In this document: positions 4,361 through 23,639 of the stretch, piece after piece | Numbering within the stretch: the first letter of the stretch is position 1 | Layout: each line of letters opens with the position of its first letter | Virus record (IMG/VR): IMGVR_UViG_3300028837_000561 | Coordinates: 1 to 26,171 of that record | Direction: 5' to 3' (one strand) | From: a virus | DNA length: 26,171 bases | Program-made: the position numbers and the translations under genes | Notes under the pieces: generated by a model | The model's database searches: none | What the model saw: the letters and a program-made list of their open reading frames with translations, nothing else | Told to the model about the DNA's origin: nothing

Positions 4361-5030
4361 CTTTCCCCTCTTTCTTAAAAAATTCTATCCTCTCTAAAAC
4401 CCTTTTATAATATTCGGGGTCAATTTCATAACCAATGATATTCCTGTCCAACTTCAAAGCTGCAATTATAGAAGCTCCTGAACCAATATATGGGTCAAGG
4501 ATGAAATCACCCTTATCTGTTGAGTTTTCTATAATTTTTTGATAGAGGGACACTGGTTTCTGAGTTGCATGAATTCTATTACTTCCAACTCTGGGAATTG
4601 TCCAGATGTCTGGTTCTCTAGCTCCCTTATATGTCCAACCTTTCCCTTTTGTTCCCAGAAAGATGACTTCATATTGATTACCAAAGCTACCCATCAGGTC
4701 TCCAGCAGTCCTATTACCCTTATCCCAGACTATCTCATTGCGTAAGAAGGTATGAAATTGCTGTTGAAACCACCAAGCTTCCTGCCAATTAGTAAAGAAA
4801 TAGAAAGCTCCTCCAGGTTTAAGAACACGAATGCTCTCCTTGACTACTTCTAGCTGGTCAGACCTGTCTTGTTGGACAAGGGACTGACTTAGCTTACTCT
4901 CTTTGTCCTTCCTATGTCCAGTCTTATAATCAAAGTAGGGGGGGTCAAGGAGAGCAAGGTCAAATATATCAGAATCCATTCGTTTGAGAGCTTCAAGACA
5001 GTCTTTATTAAGAACAATAGGTATAATCAT
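4347..5030 (-). CDS. DNA methyltransferase, beta class (N6-adenine or N4-cytosine)
   Basis: Motif IV is LLDPPYF (DPPY at 29-32), and motif I, FILDPYIGSGAS (177-187), comes later. The order IV then I defines beta-class amino-methyltransferases, and DPPY is most usual for N6-adenine enzymes. Length 227 aa is short, and no large target-recognition domain is visible beyond the middle region (residues 90-150). No cognate restriction enzyme is adjacent, so it is probably an orphan used to protect phage DNA or mark it. The ATG at 5030 follows AGGAGGTCTA and shares its A with the upstream TAA. Confidence 0.85.
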   Translation of the reverse strand: MIIPIVLNKDCLEALKRMDSDIFDLALLDPPYFDYKTGHRKDKESKLSQSLVQQDRSDQLEVVKESIRVLKPGGAFYFFTNWQEAWWFQQQFHTFLRNEIVWDKGNRTAGDLMGSFGNQYEVIFLGTKGKGWTYKGAREPDIWTIPRVGSNRIHATQKPVSLYQKIIENSTDKGDFILDPYIGSGASIIAALKLDRNIIGYEIDPEYYKRVLERIEFFKKEGKDAFD

Positions 5031-5749
5031 TAGACCTCCTCTAGTTCTGAATAACGTTTACCAATCATTGTAGTGAAGGGATAGTCAGGAAGTATGCTTG
5101 CTAGTGTTCTACACTTTATTAAGGTTTCAGGCAAGAGGGAGTCAGGGACTTCAAGAAGGATTTCATCATGTACCTGCAGCACTAATTTAACTTCCCTATC
5201 TAGTATCCTTCTCAAGTGTAGCATAGCTAGCTTTATAATGTCAACTGCTGTCCCTTGAATGATGGTATTGACTATCTTCTTTTCAGCTTTCTCCCTCATC
5301 CTCCAACTACCAGCTTTAAGTTCGGGTAAGGGTCTGATTCTACCAAACATGTTGATGACAAATCCCTCTTCTTTAGCTTGGGATACCTTTTCTTCCATCC
5401 ACTTATAAAGAGTAGGGTAAGTTCTTTTTCTCTCTTCTTGGAACTCTAAAGCTTCTGCAGGGGTACATTCCAGCATCTCTGCCAGTTTATCTTCAGTAGC
5501 ACCATAGACATCAGCAAAGTTACCTTGCTTGGCTTTGTAACGTCTCTCTTTCATCACAACCTCATCATCAGTCCAACCAAACATCCTTATAGCAGTAGCC
5601 ATATGGAGGTCTCCAGTCTTCAAATCCTCCAGCATCTGAGGGTCTTGAGATAGGATAGCAAGAACCCTTAGCTCTATCTGGCTAGCATCAAGAGAAACGA
5701 AGGAGTAGCCTTCCTCAGCTACAATGCATGACCTCAGTGTATTAGCCAT
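5030..5749 (-). CDS. polA: family A DNA polymerase, C-terminal palm/fingers part of a split PolA (239 aa)
   Basis: All three polymerase motifs are present: motif A FVSLDASQIELR (18-28, Asp21), motif B RRYKAKQGNFADVYG (about 69-83, with the Arg, Lys and Phe at the 4-residue spacing of the O helix) and motif C LQVHDEILLEV (191-201, Asp195 and Glu196). The product begins at ANTLRS, just after the place where other family A enzymes carry the TGRLSS..PNLQNIP block. That block is not in this gene. ATG 5749 follows AAAGGAGCTAG and overlaps the upstream stop by 8 bp, so it is a proper start and the split is organised for translation. Confidence 0.85.
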   Translation of the reverse strand: MANTLRSCIVAEEGYSFVSLDASQIELRVLAILSQDPQMLEDLKTGDLHMATAIRMFGWTDDEVVMKERRYKAKQGNFADVYGATEDKLAEMLECTPAEALEFQEERKRTYPTLYKWMEEKVSQAKEEGFVINMFGRIRPLPELKAGSWRMREKAEKKIVNTIIQGTAVDIIKLAMLHLRRILDREVKLVLQVHDEILLEVPDSLLPETLIKCRTLASILPDYPFTTMIGKRYSELEEV

Positions 5750-6776
5750 CTAGCTCCTTTGTTACTATGATAGGGACTCTATCAAAAAAGCCTATAATGT
5801 TCTTTCTTCTTATCCATTTATACCAGTAGAATTTAAACCATAACCAGGTATGTCTCTTAATGGTAAAGGATTCTATTGGAATATCAAAGTCTGTATGAAT
5901 CCTGCCATAAGTATCTACATTTCTAAAAGCAGGTACATAGGTAGAGAGAGTCTTCATTATACTCTTTCTCTCCAGGAACTTATCAGCTATAGGATGATGT
6001 AAAGGTTCAAGAGCTTCTTTGGAGACTGCATCCTTACCTGATTTAGTCTTTCTAGTACCTACTATTCCCTTATCCTGCAGAGCTTTTGCTGCCTGTGGGT
6101 TACTATCAAAGTTGATGTCACCTAACTCAGCCCTTAGAACTTCTTCCAGGGCTTTAACTTTGGTGATAGCATCTTGCTCTACTTCAGTCAGCTTATGTTG
6201 GTCTATCAGTAGTCCCCATTCCTCCATCTCCATAATGAGTTCTATGCAGGGCTTATCTATCTCCTCATATAAGGGGGTTCTAGGTAGTCTCTCCCATAGG
6301 AGATAGGTATTACAGGCATGTATAATAGATATGCCACCCATTACAATATGGTCTATTGCTATGTTACCCTGGTTCTTCTTCTTCCATTGGGAAGTAACAG
6401 AGGGACATTCCCTAAGAAGCAGAGTAGAAGATAAGGAGGCTAGACTATTCTCCAATATCCCTGCTGAGTAAGCTAGCAGTTTAGTATCATCATAATCCTT
6501 GACTGTATAACCTAGTCCCCATAGTTGGGGTAAGTCAAACTTAACATTCTGGATAATGACAAGAGGAATATTATCAACAAGTTGGTGTAGCAAAGCATCC
6601 CTAACATTGAAGAAGTAATAGCCAATATTAGCAGATATAGCTATTGCTATCCCCAAAGGAAGTCTGTTGTCTAAGGAAACAGTCTCTATATCTAGAGCTA
6701 TTCTTTCCTTATTACTAAACAGAACTTCTAGTGCTTCTTCCCTGCTTACGTTTGGCTGATTTGTTATGAACTGCAT
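5742..6776 (-). CDS. polA: family A DNA polymerase, N-terminal exonuclease/thumb part of a split PolA
   Basis: Residues 1-160 form a DnaQ-like 3'-5' exonuclease domain: ALDIET (D29, E31) and QNVKFD (N76, D80) are intact. In the third motif the expected Asp appears as Asn (ACN, about residue 155), so proofreading may be impaired. Residues 175-297 match the PolA thumb/palm entry, with EWGLLID, FDSNPQAAKAL and a TYGRIHTDFD end. After that the sequence becomes an unrelated Trp/Phe/Lys-rich tail (about 298-344, WLWFKFYWYKW) instead of the usual TGRLSS..PNLQN block. The start at 6776 has only a weak AAGGAAAGAAG upstream and overlaps the preceding gene by 62 bp. Confidence 0.8.
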   Translation of the reverse strand: MQFITNQPNVSREEALEVLFSNKERIALDIETVSLDNRLPLGIAIAISANIGYYFFNVRDALLHQLVDNIPLVIIQNVKFDLPQLWGLGYTVKDYDDTKLLAYSAGILENSLASLSSTLLLRECPSVTSQWKKKNQGNIAIDHIVMGGISIIHACNTYLLWERLPRTPLYEEIDKPCIELIMEMEEWGLLIDQHKLTEVEQDAITKVKALEEVLRAELGDINFDSNPQAAKALQDKGIVGTRKTKSGKDAVSKEALEPLHHPIADKFLERKSIMKTLSTYVPAFRNVDTYGRIHTDFDIPIESFTIKRHTWLWFKFYWYKWIRRKNIIGFFDRVPIIVTKELDG

Positions 6777-8587: not shown

Positions 8588-9327
8588 CCTTTAGCCTCCT
8601 GATAAGCTTCCATAAAACTACGACCTGTGAATTCATACTCAGGTAGAGGTTGGGTCAGGGCAGCACCTTTGACCTTCACCAGTTTGAAGAAGAAGCTCCC
8701 ATTAGTCTTCTGATAGATGATTGCTATGCTACGAAAGCGGTATTTGTTGTGCTTCTCTCCTTCTAGCTTCTGTCCAAACTCCTTAACCATTAGCCCCTCA
8801 ACTCCAGTCCTGGGGATTTTCTCTTTAGGACTATAATCAGTTAAGCTGGTTGTAGCCAGAACATTGAAGTCACTCCATCTTAGAGCATCATCAAAGATGT
8901 CCTCATTATGCATCCTCTTTATAACAGTCCAATCAGTTAGACCATCAAAGCCTCCGAAGTCTGCCTTACCAGACTCACGCCTTAATGCCAAGATGTGCTG
9001 TGATGGGGACTCACCATAGACATAGCGAGAGAAGGCACTTTGGGCTAAATCCCAGAAGACACCCATCATGTCAAAAGCACACCAATCATCTGGGGTCAAG
9101 ACTCCCTTTGCTTCCTTGTAGTCTGTAATAAGCTTATCCCAATTAGGTGTTACATTCTTGACTGTCAGGTTAGGAAGTTCCAATCCCATCTCTTCCAATG
9201 TCAGGTTGATGTCGCCTTCAGCATCAAAGGCATAGACCCTCCTATTAGGATACTGGACAGCTAGCTGTATAATAGCTATTGTCTTGCCTGAATTTGTATT
9301 ACCACCTATTAGAATCTTATCTCTCAT
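8584..9327 (-). CDS. phage RecA-like P-loop ATPase (AAA_24/Sak4-type), 247 aa
   Basis: Walker A is GGNTNSGKT at residues 8-16, and a Walker B-like strand WCAFDMM lies near residue 85. YAFDAEGD (32-39) is the post-Walker acidic segment typical of the AAA_24/Sak4 group, phage RecA-fold ATPases that aid strand annealing together with an SSB. Its neighbours (a Cas4/RecB-like nuclease upstream, an ERCC4-type nuclease and a clamp-like protein downstream) fit recombination-dependent replication. The C-terminal 60 residues are beta-rich and carry no other motif. Assignment to Sak4 rather than another RecA-like family is inference. Confidence 0.7.
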   Translation of the reverse strand: MRDKILIGGNTNSGKTIAIIQLAVQYPNRRVYAFDAEGDINLTLEEMGLELPNLTVKNVTPNWDKLITDYKEAKGVLTPDDWCAFDMMGVFWDLAQSAFSRYVYGESPSQHILALRRESGKADFGGFDGLTDWTVIKRMHNEDIFDDALRWSDFNVLATTSLTDYSPKEKIPRTGVEGLMVKEFGQKLEGEKHNKYRFRSIAIIYQKTNGSFFFKLVKVKGAALTQPLPEYEFTGRSFMEAYQEAKG

Positions 9328-9530
9328 TATCCCTTATCCTCCTTGTTTGCTAGGAGTGTTTCTATCTCAATTATACTTGGGAAGTCAATTACCCAGCCAA
9401 GCATCTCTAAATTGCCTCTTAATCTCCAGTACCAAGACTCATTCCCCCTGAATTTTGAATATCTACCTTCACATCTGAGCATTGGTTGGAGCTTTTTAAG
9501 CATCCCTATTACTTCTTCTTCTGTCTTCAT
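9327..9530 (-). CDS. hypothetical protein (67 aa)
   Basis: The ATG at 9530 overlaps the previous TGA as ATGA with GGGGGGAAGAA in front, and its own stop shares a base with the next ATG. The N-terminus is helical (TEEEVIGMLKKLQPML), followed by a short aromatic region (ESWYWRLRGNLEMLGWVID). No motif is recognised. It lies between two recombination genes, so it may be an accessory subunit, but nothing in the sequence proves this. Confidence 0.6.
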   Translation of the reverse strand: MKTEEEVIGMLKKLQPMLRCEGRYSKFRGNESWYWRLRGNLEMLGWVIDFPSIIEIETLLANKEDKG

Positions 9531-11426: not shown

Positions 11427-12125
11427 CTACGAGGGCTTTTTGTAGACTCCCTCTACCTCTACCAACTTACCTTCCTTGACTAAGGCTGCAGTTATAGCAC
11501 CTGCCTTAGCTAAAGGCAACAAGGGACTACCCTTGAGTTGGGGATGAAGGGTAATGGCACTCCTGAACTGAGCTTCTGTCTTATCAAAAGCAAGCTCTAA
11601 GGCAATTGCCATTGGGTCTACATCAGGTGGTGGTGGAGCTTGTTCAGTTGTTGGTGTAGGTGTTGCAGGAGTAGCTGTTGAAGGTGCTCCTACATCTGCA
11701 ACTCCAGCTATCACATAGTTGGTATAAGACCTTTTCACACCCTTGATTTCCCACTCCTTCGTGACCTTCTTCCAAGTGACTCTTTTCCCTTTGATACCAT
11801 CAGGTAAAAGAACCTTGTGTGCATCTGCTGATGCTAGGAACTCATCAACCCAGAAGCTCCCATCATAATCAGACATGTTTATTCGGAAAGAGAACGCCTC
11901 CGATATATCCATCTCCAACTCTTCAGTAACTTCTAGAGGGACATTATTAGCACACTCTACTTCAAAGAATGTCTTGGGGGGGATAACATTACCATCATCA
12001 TCAATTAGCTTACCTCCCCATTGCCCCTCATCTATACTAACTACATCCCCTTCAAAGGACTGTAGAGCTTCCCTTACCTGTCCCCATCCTCCTGACTTAG
12101 CATCTTCCTTTTTGTATACAGACAT
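11427..12125 (-). CDS. unknown phage protein with Pro/Thr linker; possible OB-fold ssDNA-binding role (232 aa)
   Basis: Residues 1-145 are beta-rich and acidic (FEGDVVSIDEG, TFFEVECANNVPLE, GKRVTWKKVTKEWEI). A Pro/Thr/Ala linker follows (about 148-168), and then a helical C-terminal domain of about 60 residues ending in a strand pair (VKEGKLVEVEGVYKK). Position between the RepA-like ATPase and the recombination genes, and the strand-rich first half, make an OB-fold single-strand binding function plausible, but no diagnostic motif is visible. ATG 12125 follows AAAAGGAGGAGTA and overlaps the upstream TAA. Confidence 0.5.
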   Translation of the reverse strand: MSVYKKEDAKSGGWGQVREALQSFEGDVVSIDEGQWGGKLIDDDGNVIPPKTFFEVECANNVPLEVTEELEMDISEAFSFRINMSDYDGSFWVDEFLASADAHKVLLPDGIKGKRVTWKKVTKEWEIKGVKRSYTNYVIAGVADVGAPSTATPATPTPTTEQAPPPPDVDPMAIALELAFDKTEAQFRSAITLHPQLKGSPLLPLAKAGAITAALVKEGKLVEVEGVYKKPS

Positions 12126-12316
12126 TACTCCTCCTTTTTATCCTCTTTATTTGGGTCAGTATAGAAGAATGCCTCAATTGTCTCGGCTACATAATCCCTC
12201 AGTCTCCAAGCATAAGCTAAGGGGCTTATTTCAAAAGCAGCCCTACCATAGGTGTTAGCAGCAGTATTGAGACTTACTTCTTTAATATGTCGCTGTTCTT
12301 TATTAGGTATAAACAA
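12125..12316 (-). CDS. small protein carrying a 14-residue block copied from the RepA-like ATPase (63 aa)
   Basis: The start is TTG at 12316, with AAAAGGAGGTCTGA in front. Residues 28-41 (FEISPLAYAWRLRD) are encoded by a 42-bp stretch identical to one in the neighbouring ATPase gene, in the same reading frame. The rest (KEVSLNTAANTYG before, YVAETIEAFFYTDPN after) is unrelated to the ATPase and resembles a small helical phage protein. The block has thus been inserted into or substituted in this gene. Function unknown. Confidence 0.55.
   Translation of the reverse strand: MFIPNKEQRHIKEVSLNTAANTYGRAAFEISPLAYAWRLRDYVAETIEAFFYTDPNKEDKKEE
12194..12235. repeat. 42-bp direct repeat, copy 1 (in small gene)
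   Basis: Identical over 42 bases to 12827-12868. Flanking bases differ on both sides. It encodes 14 residues on the minus strand in the same frame as in copy 2. Confidence 0.95.
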
Positions 12317-12373: not shown

Positions 12374-13084
12374 CTATAATCGTCTCCATGTATAGTTTTC
12401 AAATACAACATTGATGTTAGAAATCTCATGTGTTGCCTGTCTAGCCTTTGTCTGGAGTTGAACTCCACTAGGCTGTTCAGCCATAAACAGTAGTGTATCT
12501 ACAAATCCTGCAAGTCTACTATGTCCCCTTGCTCTATCAACAGAATTAACTGACATCAGGTTCTTATTAGTGTGATGTACCAGTACAATACTAGCCTCAT
12601 GTTCAGTCTTTAGGATATTCATTCTCTCTATAAATCTAGCTATATCCCTGCTATCATTCTCATCTCCACCAAAACAGGCAGCTAGACAGTCAAGGATGAT
12701 AAGCTTTGGACTGAAGGGTCTGATAGCTGCAGCAAACCTATTGAAATTCTCTTCCTCATCAATATACATTAGCATAGGGGAAGCCTCATATAACATTTGA
12801 CTTTGCAATGCAAAGTTACCTTCCATATCCCTCAGTCTCCAAGCATAAGCTAAGGGGCTTATTTCAAATTGGGCTATCAATACTCTTGCTTGCTCTGTTG
12901 TAAACCCAAGAAAAGGTGTGCCAGTAGCAACACAGAAAGCCATATACTCAGATAGCCATGACTTCTTAACCTTTGGGCTACCATATAGGAGCATTGTACC
13001 TTGCTTTGGGAGTATATCTTGAATGTAAAACTGGGGTCGGGGGAGATTCCAATGGACATACTCGCTGACATCATGTATTTCCAT
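12374..13084 (-). CDS. RepA/DnaB-like hexameric ATPase (AAA_25-type), 236 aa
   Basis: Walker A is GSPKVKKSW at 35-43; the usual Gly before Lys-Ser (GxPKxGKS) is Lys here. FEIS (73-76) follows the second strand as in RepA-family helicases, Walker B is LIILDCLAA (about 133-141), then HHTNK (sensor His) and RGHSRLAGFVDTLLFM, the family's RGSSxLxxxxD segment. The length is that of a bare RecA-fold core, so DNA unwinding or loading in phage replication is the likely role, with the polymerase downstream. ATG 13084 has only a weak AAAAGAG upstream. Confidence 0.75.
   Translation of the reverse strand: MEIHDVSEYVHWNLPRPQFYIQDILPKQGTMLLYGSPKVKKSWLSEYMAFCVATGTPFLGFTTEQARVLIAQFEISPLAYAWRLRDMEGNFALQSQMLYEASPMLMYIDEEENFNRFAAAIRPFSPKLIILDCLAACFGGDENDSRDIARFIERMNILKTEHEASIVLVHHTNKNLMSVNSVDRARGHSRLAGFVDTLLFMAEQPSGVQLQTKARQATHEISNINVVFENYTWRRL
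12827..12868. repeat. 42-bp direct repeat, copy 2 (in RepA-like ATPase)
   Basis: Identical to 12194-12235. In this gene the block sits where the RecA-like fold expects the post-Walker FE(I/M)xP segment, so this is the likely source copy. Confidence 0.95.
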
Positions 13085-14003: not shown

Positions 14004-14726
14004 TTACCAGAAGCCTAGACCAGCTTCTTGAATCTCTTTTATTGCCTGGTTTATTTCTTCTTGACTTTGTTCTGGATTCTCTTCATCAAGTGGTACTTGT
14101 CTCCCCATATTCCCATACCTGAAGGGTACAAAAGGTGTTTCTGGCTCATAGACTCCAAGCTGTTCATAAGCTTTTTTCACATCTACAACTGTATAAATCT
14201 TCTTCCCCTTCTCTATGTTAGCCTTAGCCTTTCTGAGAAACTTAGCCTTATTAAATAAAGGTGTAGGTTGGACATACTTTACCTCTCCCTTGACAGAAGC
14301 TACCTTACCACAGAGAGTTGTCCGATAGCTAACTGCATCAAACTCTAATGCAGTGTTTCTCTTTGCTACAGTTATACTAATAGGGAAGTTCTGGTCTACA
14401 TGTTCCTTGTCAGTTGCAGAATGAAAAGCCCCCATACTGTGATGGGAGTGAATTACTCCAACACATTTCTGTGGGATATGGAAGGGTTCAGCTTCTGCAC
14501 TGGTAGAGGATGCTTCTGCGTGAGGAGGAATAAATATATCCTCTATGAAGAAGTTCTCCTTCTTAGACTGTTTCCCTACTAGATAAGCCAGCCATTCCTG
14601 ATGAGCATATTCTTCCATGAGAAACTCTATCTTCTGTCTAGGTTTATTCCCTATGAAGATGATTACATCCTTTACCAGAGAACACTGAACGAATCTATCA
14701 TCCTTCTTGTTTACTTCCCAAGGCAT
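14004..14726 (-). CDS. JAB/MPN (JAMM) metallopeptidase, deubiquitinase-like (240 aa)
   Basis: The zinc site is complete: E44 in AHQEWLAYLVG, then H93-S-H95, seven residues, S103, two residues, D106, i.e. HxHx7Sx2D. This is the catalytic set of JAMM isopeptidases, which cut ubiquitin-like proteins from targets. A Ser/Ala-rich loop (70-80) precedes the site. A C-terminal extension of about 100 residues has a Lys-rich helix and an acidic GluGln-rich tail. It lies last in the Ubl-E2-E1-JAB cassette, so removing or maturing the Ubl is the expected role. ATG 14726 follows AGGAGGTAATT. Confidence 0.85.
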   Translation of the reverse strand: MPWEVNKKDDRFVQCSLVKDVIIFIGNKPRQKIEFLMEEYAHQEWLAYLVGKQSKKENFFIEDIFIPPHAEASSTSAEAEPFHIPQKCVGVIHSHHSMGAFHSATDKEHVDQNFPISITVAKRNTALEFDAVSYRTTLCGKVASVKGEVKYVQPTPLFNKAKFLRKAKANIEKGKKIYTVVDVKKAYEQLGVYEPETPFVPFRYGNMGRQVPLDEENPEQSQEEINQAIKEIQEAGLGFW

Positions 14727-14748
14727 AATTACCTCCTATACCTTTTGT

Positions 14749-14856
14749 TTATTCCCTTTCTCTTAAAACAACCACCCGAACTTCAGGTAAACCAAGTTTA
14801 ATATAGCCTACACGAGGCTCATCATAGGTAAGTACAGGGCTGTTGAGCTTAATCAT
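14749..14856 (-). CDS. mini-protein between E1-like and JAB genes (35 aa)
   Basis: ATG 14856 overlaps the E1 stop as ATGA; a GGAGAG lies about 14 bases upstream, which is distant. The product is a short strand-rich peptide (RVGYIKLGLPEVRVVVLRE) with no Cys. It fills most of the gap between the two enzyme genes. It may be a real accessory peptide or a chance frame; the overlap style favours the first. Confidence 0.4.
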   Translation of the reverse strand: MIKLNSPVLTYDEPRVGYIKLGLPEVRVVVLRERE

Positions 14857-15605
14857 ATTCGTATGTTTACTCTCCTTACTCTTCTTTCTCTTGCAACTTC
14901 CCTATCCCTCTCCATCTGAGCTACTCTTGACCTAACAAGAGGAGAATCCCCCTCTTGTCTGCACCTCTTAGAGAGTCTCTTATACCTTTGTACTGCAGGA
15001 ACACCTATCTCTGACAAGTCAAGACCAACCTCTTGTTGGGGATACTTCATCAGTTTTGCCACAGCAAGGGCAGCTACAGTAGCACTAGGTACAACCCAGG
15101 AAGGGTTAATTTCATACTGTTCTTCTTCAACATCTTTCTTTATCCAGCCTGAAACATTGCTGGTAACAGTCATGTGAGTACCATCATAGCCAGCCCTAAT
15201 ATAACCCTTATGAGCTTTGAGACAAGCATTGTAAAGGGTATGCTGAGCCTTCGGGGAGTCAGTGCAATCTATAACCCAGTCACTAACACGAAGCTGGATA
15301 TTGAGGAATAATTCTTCTAGCTTCTCTTGCACTGCCACTATGATTATATTTGGTCTTAGAGGGAGAATAAATTCCTTTGCTACCTCTACTTTAGGTCTGC
15401 CTATTGAACCTTCACATACAGGGAGTCTATTTCTGTTGGATTCCTCTAAAACATCGGGGTCAAACAGGTAGAGATTAGGTATACCACTCATAGCACAATA
15501 GGTAGCAACCCAGAAGCCTACTCCTCCAACACCAGCAATTGTCACACCTCCTCTGGGTATACTAAGGTTTAGTTGCTGTTGTCTTGTATATAACTCAAGT
15601 GGCAT
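14853..15605 (-). CDS. ThiF/E1-like adenylating enzyme (250 aa)
   Basis: The Rossmann nucleotide loop GVGGVG is at 25-30. FDPDVLEESNRNR (49-60) matches the family D-x-D-x(5)-N-x-N-R block, GRPKVEVA (Lys72) is the ATP-binding Lys, and DCTDS (113-117) is the metal-binding Asp block. All adenylation residues are therefore in place, so it should adenylate the C-terminus of a ubiquitin-like or sulfur-carrier protein. No Cys is visible in the crossover-loop region after residue 140 where E1 enzymes carry their thioester Cys; the only later one is near residue 213. The C-terminus is highly Arg-rich. ATG 15605 follows AGGAGAGATTA and overlaps the E2-like stop. Confidence 0.85.
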   Translation of the reverse strand: MPLELYTRQQQLNLSIPRGGVTIAGVGGVGFWVATYCAMSGIPNLYLFDPDVLEESNRNRLPVCEGSIGRPKVEVAKEFILPLRPNIIIVAVQEKLEELFLNIQLRVSDWVIDCTDSPKAQHTLYNACLKAHKGYIRAGYDGTHMTVTSNVSGWIKKDVEEEQYEINPSWVVPSATVAALAVAKLMKYPQQEVGLDLSEIGVPAVQRYKRLSKRCRQEGDSPLVRSRVAQMERDREVARERRVRRVNIRI

Positions 15606-16630
15606 TAATCTCTCCTAGCTGCTCCCCATCTGTTAGCATGTGGATTATCAGTATTAGTAGCCCCAGCAGTGTCAACTTCAAGGGCAACTAGGTAATCTTC
15701 TTCATCTCTAGCTGGAAGTGAACCTTCCTCACCTAACCTTTCACCCCTGTCTATCAAATCATGGATATTAATCAGACCTATTGGCTCACTTGTCATTAGA
15801 CTATCAGCATTGATAGTTATCAGTGAGGTCTCCAATGTGTGAGCCAACCTTGCTAGTGTCCCAATCCTTCCATCCCATCTTTCGGGTAGCTGTACATCCC
15901 CCCAACAGTCATAACTTGTGCCATGATAATGATTAAACTTACTACCCTGACGATTAACCAGTGTTATAGATTGGAAGGTACTTCTATCTCCTATTATATA
16001 TCTGACAAAAGTATCATGCCTTAGTCTATCTACATCTATTGCCCCCAACTTATACCTGACTCTTGACCTCACTATATATTGAGGGTTGTAAACAAGAGGC
16101 AAGCTATAGGTATAGTAGTTGTCCTGGGCATTTACTATACATCTGTTCATAAGCAAATCAGCAGGTTCATAACGCAGTTGAGGAAGAATAATTTCAGTTC
16201 TAACCTTACGAATCTCAGTTAAATAAGCATGGTGAAGACTAGCAGCCAAGCTTTCTACTTGGCGATGTTGTGACCTCAGATTCCCCAAAAGATATGTTAT
16301 CTCTTCCTTCACCTGCCCCTCAACAATTTCATTAGCATCAAAAGTGGATGTCTTACCAGCGATAACAATGTTAATATTAGTTTCAATATCAGGGAGAGTC
16401 CAATCTAATCGGTTTGGTTCTGGTTGCTCAATAGAGTTGTGTGCTTCAAGAAGAGCATCTAAAGGAATCTCAGCCTGTGAAAGTATCTCTCTTAGTTGGA
16501 CTGCTCTAGGACAATTAGAATCTATCAGGCAGAAAGCATGCACCCCCAAATCCATTGAGATAATTATACCTTCGGGGTGCTGCTCTGTCTTAATGTTTTC
16601 TAAAGCTCTTAATACCTGTCTTAAATCCAT
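15605..16630 (-). CDS. E2-like (RWD/UBC-fold) ubiquitin-conjugating-type protein (341 aa)
   Basis: Residues 165-280 follow an E2-like plan: strands YTYSLPLVYNP and ITLVNRQG, then NHYHG (H234, H236), a flap with Cys242 in YDCWGD, and a long helix (GTLARLAHTLETSL) ending in a TINADS segment like the E2 NPDSP turn. Bacterial E2 families have the same HxH..C layout. The first 160 residues hold an N-terminal domain (sheet GIIISMDLGVHAF) and a coiled-coil-like helix (about 105-145). The match is by pattern only. The E1-like gene starts at its last base. ATG 16630 lacks a good ribosome binding site (GAGG 15 bases away). Confidence 0.65.
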   Translation of the reverse strand: MDLRQVLRALENIKTEQHPEGIIISMDLGVHAFCLIDSNCPRAVQLREILSQAEIPLDALLEAHNSIEQPEPNRLDWTLPDIETNINIVIAGKTSTFDANEIVEGQVKEEITYLLGNLRSQHRQVESLAASLHHAYLTEIRKVRTEIILPQLRYEPADLLMNRCIVNAQDNYYTYSLPLVYNPQYIVRSRVRYKLGAIDVDRLRHDTFVRYIIGDRSTFQSITLVNRQGSKFNHYHGTSYDCWGDVQLPERWDGRIGTLARLAHTLETSLITINADSLMTSEPIGLINIHDLIDRGERLGEEGSLPARDEEDYLVALEVDTAGATNTDNPHANRWGAARRD

Positions 16631-16922
16631 CTGATTATACTTTATACCTCAATTAAATAGTGCCTGAATTACTAAGCTGAGTCCCAAATCTAAACTAGTT
16701 AATAGTTACTAAACAGGTCAACCTTTCTGTCCAGGCACTATGCTGGCATGTTTTATCCAATAGGGGAAAGAATTCTGACTACAACAGGAGGTGACTGTGC
16801 GACAGTGATAATAGACTCCCCTCTTGGGCAGGAAAATTTTAACCAGACACTATAAATCTGGGTAGTAAACTTCTTACCAAGTTTCACTACTGCGTTCCTC
16901 TTTGTGCAACCAGCCATTACAC
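16631..16922 (-). other. 292-bp structured spacer between Ubl-like and E2-like genes
   Basis: The spacer holds inverted repeats: GTAGTGAAACTT with AAGTTTACTAC (16890-16879 and 16872-16862, one bulge); ACTGT-CGC-ACAGT (about 16794-16806); and TAGTGCCTG with CAGGCACTA (16740-16732 and 16666-16658, 65 bases apart). It is unusually long for this array, where genes normally overlap. It could be a structured 5' leader controlling the E2-like gene, which itself has a poor ribosome binding site. A 54-codon frame crosses part of it (see next entry). Confidence 0.45.
16753..16917 (-). CDS. doubtful small ORF (54 aa) in the Ubl-E2 spacer
   Basis: ATG 16917 lies 5 bases after the Ubl-like stop but has no ribosome binding site. 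The basic product (NAVVKLGKKF, two Cys) ends in SPIG. It overlaps two hairpins. Coding is uncertain, and the RNA structures may be the true content. It is listed because it is the only sizeable frame in this gap on the transcribed strand. Confidence 0.2.
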   Translation of the reverse strand: MAGCTKRNAVVKLGKKFTTQIYSVWLKFSCPRGESIITVAQSPPVVVRILSPIG

Positions 16923-17288
16923 TCAGCCTACCTTATCATAGCTGGTAAGAGTTATCCTCTGCCCAGCTTCAATAAGCTCTGGTGCATCCGAAGGATTGAC
17001 AACCTCCGAGCCATTGAGGAATACCCTGAAGTATCCACCATAATGAGCCTCATCAGCTATCCGTTCTACTGTCCCCTGGAAGGGAGCTCCAACTGGAACT
17101 CCGACTGAATCACCTCTGCCAGTCTCTATTCGGACTTCCTCAGGTGCAGTAGCAGCCCACTCATCAGGTGTAGCTTCACCAGTCTCCTCGGTCTCTTCCC
17201 TCTGGAGTAATTGTCTGGGCTCGGTCAATCCTCTCCTCTCCGCCTCTTCCCTTGTAATGAAATGACCATGCTCATCTCTGAAAGCCAC
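16923..17288 (-). CDS. ubiquitin-like beta-grasp protein ending in glycine (121 aa)
   Basis: I chose GTG 17288 (AAAAAGGAGG, then 6 bases); a TTG at 17294 would touch the ribosome binding site. Residues about 50-121 fit a beta-grasp fold: strand VRIETGRG, hairpin turn, helix TVERIADEA, strand FRVFLNGSEV, DAPELIEAG and a last strand RITLTSYDKVG. The chain ends at Gly with no tail, as needed for adenylation by an E1. The first 45 residues are a charged, probably disordered extension. The gene looks richer in G+C than its neighbours. It is first in the operon that holds E2-, E1- and JAB-like genes, which strengthens the call; by sequence alone it is moderate. Confidence 0.65.
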   Translation of the reverse strand: MAFRDEHGHFITREEAERRGLTEPRQLLQREETEETGEATPDEWAATAPEEVRIETGRGDSVGVPVGAPFQGTVERIADEAHYGGYFRVFLNGSEVVNPSDAPELIEAGQRITLTSYDKVG

Positions 17289-17336: not shown

Positions 17337-17365
17337 ACTCTATAAGACCTGCTATCAGGTGTCAA
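17337..17365 (-). promoter_or_regulatory. sigma70-type promoter for the minus-strand array
   Basis: TTGACA (17365-17360), 17 bases, TAGAGT (17342-17337); TATAGA at 17344-17339 is an alternative -10. The spacer holds the palindrome CCTGATAGCAGG, a possible operator. The leader then has hairpin GCTACA-ACG-TGTAGC (within 17311-17329) before the Ubl-like start. It would drive the conjugation cassette and probably the replication genes. Confidence 0.6.
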
Positions 17366-17442: not shown

Positions 17443-17472
17443 TTGACACCCTGAAGGGAGGTATGCTAGAGT
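17443..17472 (+). promoter_or_regulatory. sigma70-type promoter for the plus-strand small genes
   Basis: TTGACA (17443-17448), 18 bases, TAGAGT (17467-17472), the same -10 as in the divergent promoter. CCCTT...AAGGG arms surround the -35 box, and a leader hairpin AGCCTAA-GA-TTAGGCT follows near 17484-17499. The ribosome binding site AAAGGAGGTAGAGAC precedes ATG 17526. Confidence 0.5.
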
Positions 17473-22052: not shown

Positions 22053-22134
22053 TATTCGTAGAGCCCACCTCTCCCGAAGGATAAATAAACCTTTGCATAG
22101 GCTCAAACGGAAGTACAGGATAAAAGGATGGTAA
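22012..22134 (+). CDS. possible basic mini-protein spanning the TerS-TerL junction (40 aa)
   Basis: GTG 22012 follows GAGGGGGAAA; the TAA at 22132-22134 overlaps the TerL start (22128). The product is extremely basic (NIRRAHLSRRINKPLHRLKR) with no acidic residue. It covers the otherwise empty 75-bp gap between the terminase genes and could couple their translation. A leader-peptide role or a chance frame are both possible. Confidence 0.4.
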   Translation: MKQSLKKLVSSRTNIRRAHLSRRINKPLHRLKRKYRIKGW

Positions 22135-23639
22135 CAACCCAATCAAAGGTAGATAGAATAGGGTTAATTGGAGACCTTCTCTACATAGATAATAAAGAAG
22201 GTCAGGTAGTACCTTTCAGGCTCAATAGGATGCAAAGGTACTTCCATACTTATAAATCCAATAGGAACATAGTCCTTAAACATCGTCAAGGAGGAATGAC
22301 CTCTAGTATTCTAGCTGATATGCTCATGGATTCTATTACTGTTCCTCATACTTATTCTGCAGTAGTCTCTCATGAAACAAGGTCAACTCAGCGACTACTT
22401 GATAAAGTCCAATTCTTCTATGATACTATGCAACCTCCTAAACCCGAGATAGGAGCAGAAAGCAGGTCTGAGAAGACCTTCCCTGAATATCATAGTTCCG
22501 TCTACATAGGGACAGCGGGGGCAAGAGCTTTTGGTAGGGGTGACATGATTAGAAAGGCTCTTCTTTCTGAGCTACCTTTTTATGAAGACCCAGGGAAAGT
22601 TTTGACAGGTGTGGAGGATGCAGTGCCTTTATCTGGTGAGCTTAATATTGAAGCAACTCCTAATGGTGAAGATAATCTTTTCTTTGAGAGATGGACACAA
22701 GCTAGGGAAGGGAAGTCTCCTTATAAACCTTTCTTCTTTCCTTGGTGGTGGACAGAAGACTACCAGATACCAATAGGTTCAGAATATTCCCTACCCGAAG
22801 ATAGGGGGGAGCTAACTTTTACTGGGGAAGAGGTTGAACTTATAGAGAAACATCATCTTATTGAAGCCCAGATAAGGTGGAGACGCTGGAAGATTGCTGA
22901 GAAAGGGGGTCTCTTTTGGCAGGAGTTCCCAGAAGATGAAGTGTCTTGTTTCATTACTATTGGAGACCCTGTTTTTGACCAGTTTATTTTGAATAACTTA
23001 GCCCAGAATTGTTATGAAGGAACAAGACATCCCGAAGGTTGGGTTTATTGGATAGCACCCGAAAAGGGTAAAAATTATACTATTGGGGTAGATACCAGTG
23101 CAGGAGCACCAGGGGGTAGCTACAGTGCTGCTGCTGTTCTTGATGATGATTGGAGAGTTTGTGCTACATTTCAGGCAAGGATAGAACCCCATACTTTTGC
23201 AGAACTTCTCAAAAAGATGGGAACATGGTATAATATGGCAGAACTGGTAGTGGAAAGGAACTTTACTGGTTATGCAGTGCTTTCTTCCCTAGCTGGAGGG
23301 GTAGACTTGACACATGAGGGAGTGGGTCTTGCTAACTATCCTAACATATATAGGGAAAGGGATTTCCTTTCTGGTAAGATTACCAGTAAACTTGGTTGGT
23401 GGACAATGGACTCAACCAGGCAGTATATGATGAATAGGGCTAAGATTATGCTACCAACTGTAAACTTATGGGATGTTAATCTTGTTAGGCAAATGAGGAG
23501 TTTTAGGTTTATCAAATATAAACCAACAGCCCAGACCTTTGATGACTTGGCTATGGCTTTTATGATTGCAGTAGCAGCCAAGAGTGTATCAGGGGGGTCA
23601 AGAGGTTTCAGAGGTTCTGTCCCAGGTTGGGCTTGGTAA
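22128..23639 (+). CDS. terL: terminase large subunit (503 aa)
   Basis: The ATPase half has the variant Walker A of large terminases (KHRQGGMTS, residues 51-59) and a hydrophobic strand ending in acidic residues (KALLSELPFYED, about 143-154) in the Walker B position. The nuclease half shows TIGVDTSAG (about 319-327) and ELVVERNFTG (about 370-379), matching the first two acidic blocks of the RNase H-like fold, with a later FDDLAMAF Asp pair (about 470). It pumps DNA into the prohead and cuts it at the end of a round. ATG 22128 is the only start after an in-frame stop; its ribosome binding site (AGGATAAAAGG) is modest. Confidence 0.9.
   Translation: MVTTQSKVDRIGLIGDLLYIDNKEGQVVPFRLNRMQRYFHTYKSNRNIVLKHRQGGMTSSILADMLMDSITVPHTYSAVVSHETRSTQRLLDKVQFFYDTMQPPKPEIGAESRSEKTFPEYHSSVYIGTAGARAFGRGDMIRKALLSELPFYEDPGKVLTGVEDAVPLSGELNIEATPNGEDNLFFERWTQAREGKSPYKPFFFPWWWTEDYQIPIGSEYSLPEDRGELTFTGEEVELIEKHHLIEAQIRWRRWKIAEKGGLFWQEFPEDEVSCFITIGDPVFDQFILNNLAQNCYEGTRHPEGWVYWIAPEKGKNYTIGVDTSAGAPGGSYSAAAVLDDDWRVCATFQARIEPHTFAELLKKMGTWYNMAELVVERNFTGYAVLSSLAGGVDLTHEGVGLANYPNIYRERDFLSGKITSKLGWWTMDSTRQYMMNRAKIMLPTVNLWDVNLVRQMRSFRFIKYKPTAQTFDDLAMAFMIAVAAKSVSGGSRGFRGSVPGWAW

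Follow-up and report, generated by a model that had tools for sequence, protein, structure and literature searches.

The DNA analyzed here, referred to below as the window, is a 26,171-base IMG/VR virus record of a tailed phage (IMGVR_UViG_3300028837_000561, positions 1 to 26,171). At the upstream end of a leftward gene array for DNA replication, it contains four genes, all on the minus strand, for a ubiquitin-like protein (UBL), an E2-like protein, an E1-like adenylating enzyme and a JAB peptidase, in that order (Table 1). The set is a conserved Ubl cassette, widespread among phages and linked to replication, and is a variant of the bacterial Ubl-E2-E1-JAB kind. We put the probability that the cassette specifies a true Ubl conjugation pathway linked to phage replication at roughly 60%. 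All four open reading frames (ORFs), with the coordinates and the residues that a first-pass annotation of the window had assigned to them, proved correct, and its proposal that a phage encodes a complete gene set for Ubl activation, conjugation and deconjugation is supported.

Homologous loci were found through the E1-like protein and were not chosen for the presence of a clamp gene. A search of viral contigs with the E1 of the window yielded ten relatives, and an alignment-based scan added ~18 further close relatives. Profile searches revealed the order UBL-E2-E1-JAB in ~22 non-redundant environmental phage contigs, i.e., in all loci holding the entire region, and the E2-like gene is always located between those for the UBL and the E1. 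A scan of 84,980 prokaryote genomes detected the full cassette on three contigs only (two metagenome-assembled genomes), and the gene content of these contigs is phage-like. No relatives emerged from a single-protein scan of viral contigs or when E2-like proteins were searched against phage records by tblastn, and two alignments, A2 and A3, were too diverse to be scanned for patterns. In the T4-like members tested, purifying selection acts on each of the four genes: the pairwise ratio of non-synonymous to synonymous substitution rates (dN/dS) was 0.03-0.24, with dS saturated in some pairs. Because a homologous four-gene order recurs, key residues are invariant and dN/dS is low, the cassette is not a product of chance.

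The linkage to replication genes is strict in the T4-like relatives. Homologues of the clamp-loader genes gp44 and gp62 and of the sliding-clamp gene gp45 are located directly upstream of the cassette, on the same strand, in 20 out of 20 cases, some of the UBLs being placed by a profile search of the loci rather than by the listing of neighbors. PHROG matches were to clamp loader, at 4e-57 and 2e-15, and to processivity factor, at 5e-9 to 2e-7; of five clamp homologues scanned, three were assigned to the clamp family. In the window clade, which consists of the window and the contigs L012 and L013, JAB is followed in gene order by a RepA-type AAA ATPase, a conserved 232-aa protein, an exonuclease, a Sak4-like protein, a nuclease and a polymerase, with further genes between JAB and the ATPase; in L012, the gene for the AAA_25/RepA-like ATPase comes directly after that for JAB. 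Thus, the location of the cassette within a phage replication array, as noted at first pass, is borne out, and the linkage extends to T4-like, window-clade and sister phages. This location could also be explained by early expression alone, if the cassette served in conflict, tagging host defense proteins or, just as tails are tagged by Bil, the virion proteins of competing phages. Such a role would agree with the divergence of the UBL sequence between phages and with the bacterial use of Ubl conjugation against phages in Bil and in CBASS, the cyclic oligonucleotide-based anti-phage signaling system (PMC11354881, PMC10097602). However, adjacency to the clamp loader and clamp in every T4-like relative is unexpected of mobile exclusion cargo, linkage to replication or repair genes is found in other phage groups too, and neither the UBL nor the E2-like protein or JAB has a match in PADLOC. 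We therefore regard a role in conflict as unlikely.

The UBL starts at a GTG codon at position 17,288, with an AGGAGG sequence six bases before it, and its last residue is Gly121, which is exposed without processing. It has an N-terminal extension of ~50 residues in common with its L013 homologue. An AlphaFold2 model built from 22 sequences predicts a single beta-grasp domain of topology beta-beta-alpha-beta-beta-beta, with a predicted local distance difference test score (pLDDT) of >90 in the domain. The top matches listed when this model was compared with the PDB by Foldseek were all beta-grasp domains of the ubiquitin, SUMO, UBX, MoaD, TGS or a similar type (probability 0.92-1.0, but E only ~0.01). 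Scans of Pfam, PHROG and PADLOC assigned no family to the protein. The terminal Gly is invariant in the alignment of 22 homologues, and 1-5 residues follow it in 11 of them, which fits maturation by JAB. Fold prediction, structural matches and the invariant Gly thus agree with the beta-grasp Ubl of the earlier annotation, and the protein combines the two hallmarks of a ubiquitin-like protein, i.e., a predicted beta-grasp fold and a C-terminal Gly.

The E1-like enzyme has a complete nucleotide-binding site (GVGGVG, D49/D51, N57, N59, R60, K72, and D113), the residues of which are invariant in 23 homologues, N59 nearly so. Judged from its sequence, it carries the signature of the Rossmann-type adenylation domain of the ThiF/E1 superfamily (GxGGxG, D, N, R, K, D), and its profile matches PDB structures of yeast Uba1, MccB, ThiF, MoeB, UBA5, and Cap2. 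Together with the Pfam match, the conserved site confirms a ThiF enzyme with all adenylation residues. An E1-type catalytic Cys is absent from the alignment in 23 of 23 members of the window E1 clade (support 0.968). Whereas the ThiF protein of PRTRC, the ParB-related, ThiF-related cassette of plasmids, and the E1s of the sister phages discussed below have a Cys at this position (PSCS, PCTMKHT, and ICSYKQT), the stretch reads PSWVVP in the window clade (PSW168-170), with Pro168 and Ser169 invariant. A Cys-to-Ser exchange is only a suggestion, since in the MAFFT alignment Ser169 does not fall precisely in the column of the Cys. The absence of the catalytic Cys makes it likely that the adenylated UBL is passed directly to the Cys of the E2-like protein; alternatively, the enzyme may use an ester or yield a thiocarboxylate product.

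The missing Cys also bears on a different explanation, in which the genes form a sulfur-carrier module: a ThiS/MoaD-like UBL would be adenylated and receive sulfur, the Cys protein would be its sulfur-transfer partner, JAB would free the carrier, and a thio-modified nucleotide, tRNA or cofactor would be made. MoeB-type enzymes that only form adenylates likewise lack the Cys, the top NCBIfam matches of the E1 are ThiF and MoeB, and JABs adjoin ThiS/MoaD genes in sulfur operons (PMC1779556). However, no sulfurtransferase, cysteine desulfurase or rhodanese was recognized among the conserved neighbors, the E2-like protein matches the Prok-E2_D profile, and the E1 of the sister cassettes retains its Cys. 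ThiS/MoaD sulfur carriers usually end in GG, whereas the UBL ends read AG, VG or PG, with AGG before the tail in L058 alone. On balance, a sulfur-carrier module seems improbable.

The JAB of the window displays the JAMM peptidase signature E...HxHx7Sx2D as E44, HSH93-95, seven residues, S103, two residues and D106. All five residues are invariant in 23 JABs, and together with the Prok-JAB match they corroborate the complete zinc site that was predicted at first pass.

The E2-like protein consists of a coiled-coil N-terminal half and a core of approximately residues 156-300, and it has a conserved W335 near the C-terminus. The core contains the sequence HYH at 234-236 and the catalytic-type Cys242 within a CxGx4P motif, and a helix begins 14 residues past the Cys, which is the same distance as in UBE2D2. 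Among 24 homologues, F232, H234, Y235, H236, C242, W243, G244, and N274 are invariant, and none of the residues after C242 is an invariant His. No family was assigned to the protein in Pfam, NCBIfam, PHROGs or PADLOC, a search of PDB sequences with its profile gave chance-level matches only, and direct hhalign comparison of the core with Cap2 and with ubiquitin-conjugating (UBC) sequences was not significant. Among 41 profiles compared with that of the E2-like protein, PRTRC protein B (Pfam Prok-E2_D) was the best match, with a score of 22.0 and E=0.013, the next score being 20.2. None of 150 column shuffles reached this score (maximum, 19.9), and the Cys and the CxGx4P motif are in register between both proteins in the profile-profile alignment. 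PRTRC B matches canonical UBC E2s at E=4.5e-4, as calculated with four E2 sequences. Because PRTRC B is the best match and itself matches UBC E2s, kinship of the E2-like protein with E2 enzymes is likely, not proved.

Two peptides may connect this protein with the UBL. Most E2-like proteins (L001-L059) have a DVWST-like C-terminus, and VW/YWDN-like peptides stand at the start of many UBLs. The terminal Trp pattern was found in 11 of 24 E2-like proteins and 8 of 22 UBLs vs. 18 of 419 other ORFs; a shared docking motif is possible. The N-terminal DIWTF stretch of the clamp loader was considered as the same motif and rejected, as it appears to be the clamp loader's own sequence. The contig L001 carries two tandem E2-like genes, each encoding HYH and the Cys.

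Several points weigh against a conjugation pathway linked to replication, and the case is weakest where the fold and chemistry of the E2-like protein are concerned. Its core is predicted at a pLDDT of 90-97, with a hairpin and a helix inserted in the sheet. When the model was compared with the PDB and viral structures by Foldseek, nothing significant was found; UFC1, the Tsg101 UEV domain, a Plasmodium E2 and Cap2 appeared at E values of 0.6-1.1 among matches to coiled coils. This outcome is explained in part by the submission of the whole chain, including the coiled coil of low confidence. Thus, the HxH and C242 reported at first pass are real and invariant, but the UBC fold lacks a significant structural match. 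Profile comparison lends modest support to the E2 kinship, with E=0.013 in one case, and the two His and the Cys might bind metal instead. Besides, the loss of the E1 Cys would fit a sulfur-carrier enzyme as well, no clamp gene is in view in the window clade, and linkage to replication genes is no proof of a target. If the first of these points prevailed, the unit would comprise the ThiF-like enzyme, the UBL and JAB only, and the HYH/Cys protein would be a metal-binding or structural replication protein; the capacity of HxH and C to ligate zinc and the lack of a Pfam match to UBC would agree with this. Yet, the HYH/Cys gene invariably sits between those for the UBL and the E1, its CxGx4P and Cys are in register with those of PRTRC B, and HPHxxxxxGC-type motifs in the sister phages resemble the HPN...C motif of E2s; this reading is very unlikely.

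If the cassette does encode a conjugation pathway, it might operate as follows. JAB would trim the residues after the UBL Gly in the approximately half of the homologues that have them, whilst this Gly is already free in the window. The ThiF-type enzyme would then adenylate the Gly at the expense of ATP, and the UBL would pass to Cys242 either straight from the adenylate or via an ester on the invariant Ser169, with HYH of the E2-like protein in the role of the His-Pro-Asn motif of E2s. The E2-like protein would transfer the UBL to its target without a separate E3, and JAB would eventually take it off again. The likeliest targets would be replication proteins, the sliding clamp first in the T4-like relatives; modification of the clamp or of other replisome proteins is itself a tentative proposal. 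Similarly speculative is the broader idea that several unrelated groups of tailed phages have complete Ubl pathways dedicated to their own replisomes, with an E1 devoid of a catalytic Cys; the T4-like form would then modify the sliding clamp, by analogy with the ubiquitination and SUMOylation of PCNA.

Related cassettes are found in other phages. Sister cassettes with the order UBL-E2-JAB-E1 are present in marine phages (L045 and L052), in L047 and in crAss-like phages (L030 and L057). They adjoin genes for Sak4-like and primase-like proteins in L045/L052 and a uracil-DNA glycosylase (UDG) gene in L030/L057, the names of neighbors in unannotated sister contigs being readings from the sequence. 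Cultured carriers are crAss001, where the cassette (gp79-gp78-gp77-gp76) is flanked by the genes for primase (gp80) and UDG (gp74), DAC15 and Flavobacterium phage Fpv1. Their loci are L091 (crAss001, 76400-87131), L093 (DAC15), and L089 (Fpv1), and likewise L090. In these phages, the cassette genes are annotated as hypothetical, metalloprotease or thiamine-biosynthesis protein, the E1 as thiamine-biosynthesis protein or hypothetical. Proteins of the gp79 type have no Pfam match and are putative UBLs by their position and sequence pattern. The E2-like motif reads YMHSHV...PCTG or similar in the crAss type, LHPHISNRSGCFG in the marine phages L045 and L052, and GHPCLENSLNICMG in L047, where it aligns with the HPN...C region of UBC at E=0.058. 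Since the E2s of the sister cassettes lack significant profile similarity to that of the window or to each other, a common origin of all phage cassettes is not established. In Fpv1 (L089:2665-4957), an opposite-strand endonuclease gene interrupts the JAB gene immediately ahead of the JAMM-motif HSH, which suggests a homing-type intron or insertion. The viral contigs L031, L035, and L048 encode a TFIIB-like zinc protein beside a ThiF-type E1 and JAB, and L048 also has a chaperonin gene; these are possibly archaeal viruses with another Ubl-type system. The E1-like genes of these three contigs and of L061 and L062 were set aside as other systems.

Endonuclease genes also occur within the cassettes proper. 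GIY-YIG-like genes, which are related to one another, are located on the opposite strand between cassette genes at L007:8573-9307, L008:8492-9421, L009:8568-9239, and L024:7106-7942, and L008 has a second E1 fragment at 9239-9418. Shortly downstream of the cassette in L009 (10775-12367), a 530-aa protein is encoded that matches phrog_850 (phage RNA-binding; 5e-59) and resembles Ro60/TROVE. Several tandem paralogues of a protein of ~200-280 aa (families F17 and F25) are encoded downstream of the cassette in L001, L014, L015, and L024.

In the window itself, the minus-strand array further contains genes for an AAA_25/RepA-like ATPase, an exonuclease, a Sak4-like protein (a label read from the sequence, the PHROG match being weak), an ERCC4-nuclease-like protein, a DNA polymerase, a methyltransferase and a 5'-nucleotidase-like protein. 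The E2-like and E1 genes overlap (TAATG), and gaps of 292 and 126 bases separate the UBL from the E2-like gene and the E1 gene from that for JAB, respectively. The promoter-like site upstream of the UBL gene is present as previously annotated, but the claim of an early-type promoter is weakened as such sites are not in excess of chance in the region (12 vs. 10.2 in shuffles). It is mirrored by a divergent promoter-like site at 17443-17472 (plus strand) in the divergent intergenic region, and both outward-facing sites have their -35 hexamers in the arms of an imperfect inverted repeat of 20 nt. An exact 42-nt direct repeat is present at 12194-12235 and 12827-12868; because of this repeat, the short ORF at 12125-12316 carries the AAA ATPase peptide FEISPLAYAWRLRD. 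The homology to DNA polymerase (PHROG 17) is divided between two overlapping ORFs (5030-5749 and 5742-6776), and in L012, too, the first part of the split polymerase ends separately.

Table 1. Features of the cassette and its surroundings in the window.
Feature	Position	Strand	Evidence or remark
UBL, ubiquitin-like beta-grasp protein (predicted), 121 aa	16923..17288	-	GTG start
E2-like protein, 341 aa	15605..16630	-	HYH234-236 and Cys242
E1-like adenylating enzyme (predicted), ThiF family, 250 aa	14853..15605	-	Pfam ThiF 6e-27
JAB/JAMM metallopeptidase (predicted), 240 aa	14004..14726	-	Pfam Prok-JAB 5e-6
AAA_25/RepA-like replication ATPase, neighbor	12374..13084	-	Pfam AAA_25 7e-32; PHROG primase/helicase families
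Promoter-like TTGACA-N17-TAGAGT upstream of UBL	17337..17365	-	Sequence pattern
Terminase large subunit	22128-23639	+	

The known bacterial Ubl-E2-E1-JAB operons are either PRTRC genes of plasmids or anti-phage defenses (Bil and CBASS). Whole cassettes in phage replication modules reverse that picture, as phages appear to use Ubl tagging themselves. They would offer a phage parallel to the ubiquitination and SUMOylation of the eukaryotic clamp and bear on the origin of ubiquitin systems. The idea is open to test now, because crAss001, DAC15, and Fpv1 are cultured phages that carry sister cassettes. In the literature searched, no phage cassette linked to replication is described; a prior description is possible, as bioRxiv and most subscription papers were outside the scope of the search. 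The cassette is not mentioned in the main text of a 2021 survey of crAss-like phages. Earlier, phage Ubl and JAB genes were described in tail modules only, and Ubl-JAB-E1-E2 operons (class 6d) in bacteria (Iyer et al., 2006; PMC1779556).

Among the systems with phage or anti-phage connections, phage lambda TAPI/TAPK likewise represents a phage-encoded Ubl and JAB, but in a tail module without E1 or E2 (PMC1779556), whereas the window has both in a replication module. Type II CBASS shares E2, E1, and JAB activities in Cap2 and Cap3; however, E2 and E1 are fused in Cap2 and a cGAS-like enzyme is conjugated, whereas the window has separate genes and its own UBL. Bil also combines Ubl, E2, E1, and JAB in one operon. 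The first-pass annotation was wrong in attributing the gene order of the window to Bil, as the latter has the order Ubl, E2, JAB, E1 (PMC11354881). Furthermore, BilA is a double-Ubl protein, a CEHH motif follows the Cys of BilB, and BilD combines a Cys domain with two adenylation domains, one active and one inactive (PMC11354881), whereas the window encodes a single beta-grasp domain, no CEHH and one ThiF domain without the catalytic Cys. As all Bil features tested are absent, the comparison fails, and membership was rejected. The sister phage cassettes have the same four parts, linkage to replication and, in most of them, an HxH...CxG-type E2 motif, but E1 and JAB are swapped, the catalytic Cys of the E1 is kept, and the UBL of the crAss-like phages has a long C-terminal extension.

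PRTRC, found on large plasmids of proteobacteria and Bacteroidota and corresponding to class 6d of Iyer et al. (2006), also has separate genes for its four components, namely a Ubl, an E2-like protein, a ThiF-type E1 and a JAB, and its loci lie near genes for ParB and, in one case, ssb. Membership of the phage cassette was rejected on five of the six features tested. PRTRC loci have the order ParB-E-C(Ubl)-F-B(E2)-A(JAB)-ThiF, whereas the phage set has no ParB, E, and F partners. The PRTRC Ubl family Prok_Ub (PF14454), which PRTRC C matches, was not matched by the phage UBL (hhalign E=0.26). For the sixth feature, an E2-like protein of family Prok-E2_D (PF14460/TIGR03737), hmmscan gave no match, in contrast to the hhalign result given above. 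The PRTRC E2 has a conserved His C-terminal to the Cys (PMC1779556), whereas H234 and H236 precede it in the phage protein. Unlike their PRTRC counterparts, the window-clade E1 lacks the PSCS cysteine and the window JAB an N-terminal DUF2016 domain. A distant kinship was retained nevertheless: the profiles of JAB (vs. PRTRC A) and E1 are clearly related to those of PRTRC, at E values of 2e-7 and 9e-13, respectively, and by sequence comparison PRTRC is, distantly, the nearest known system.

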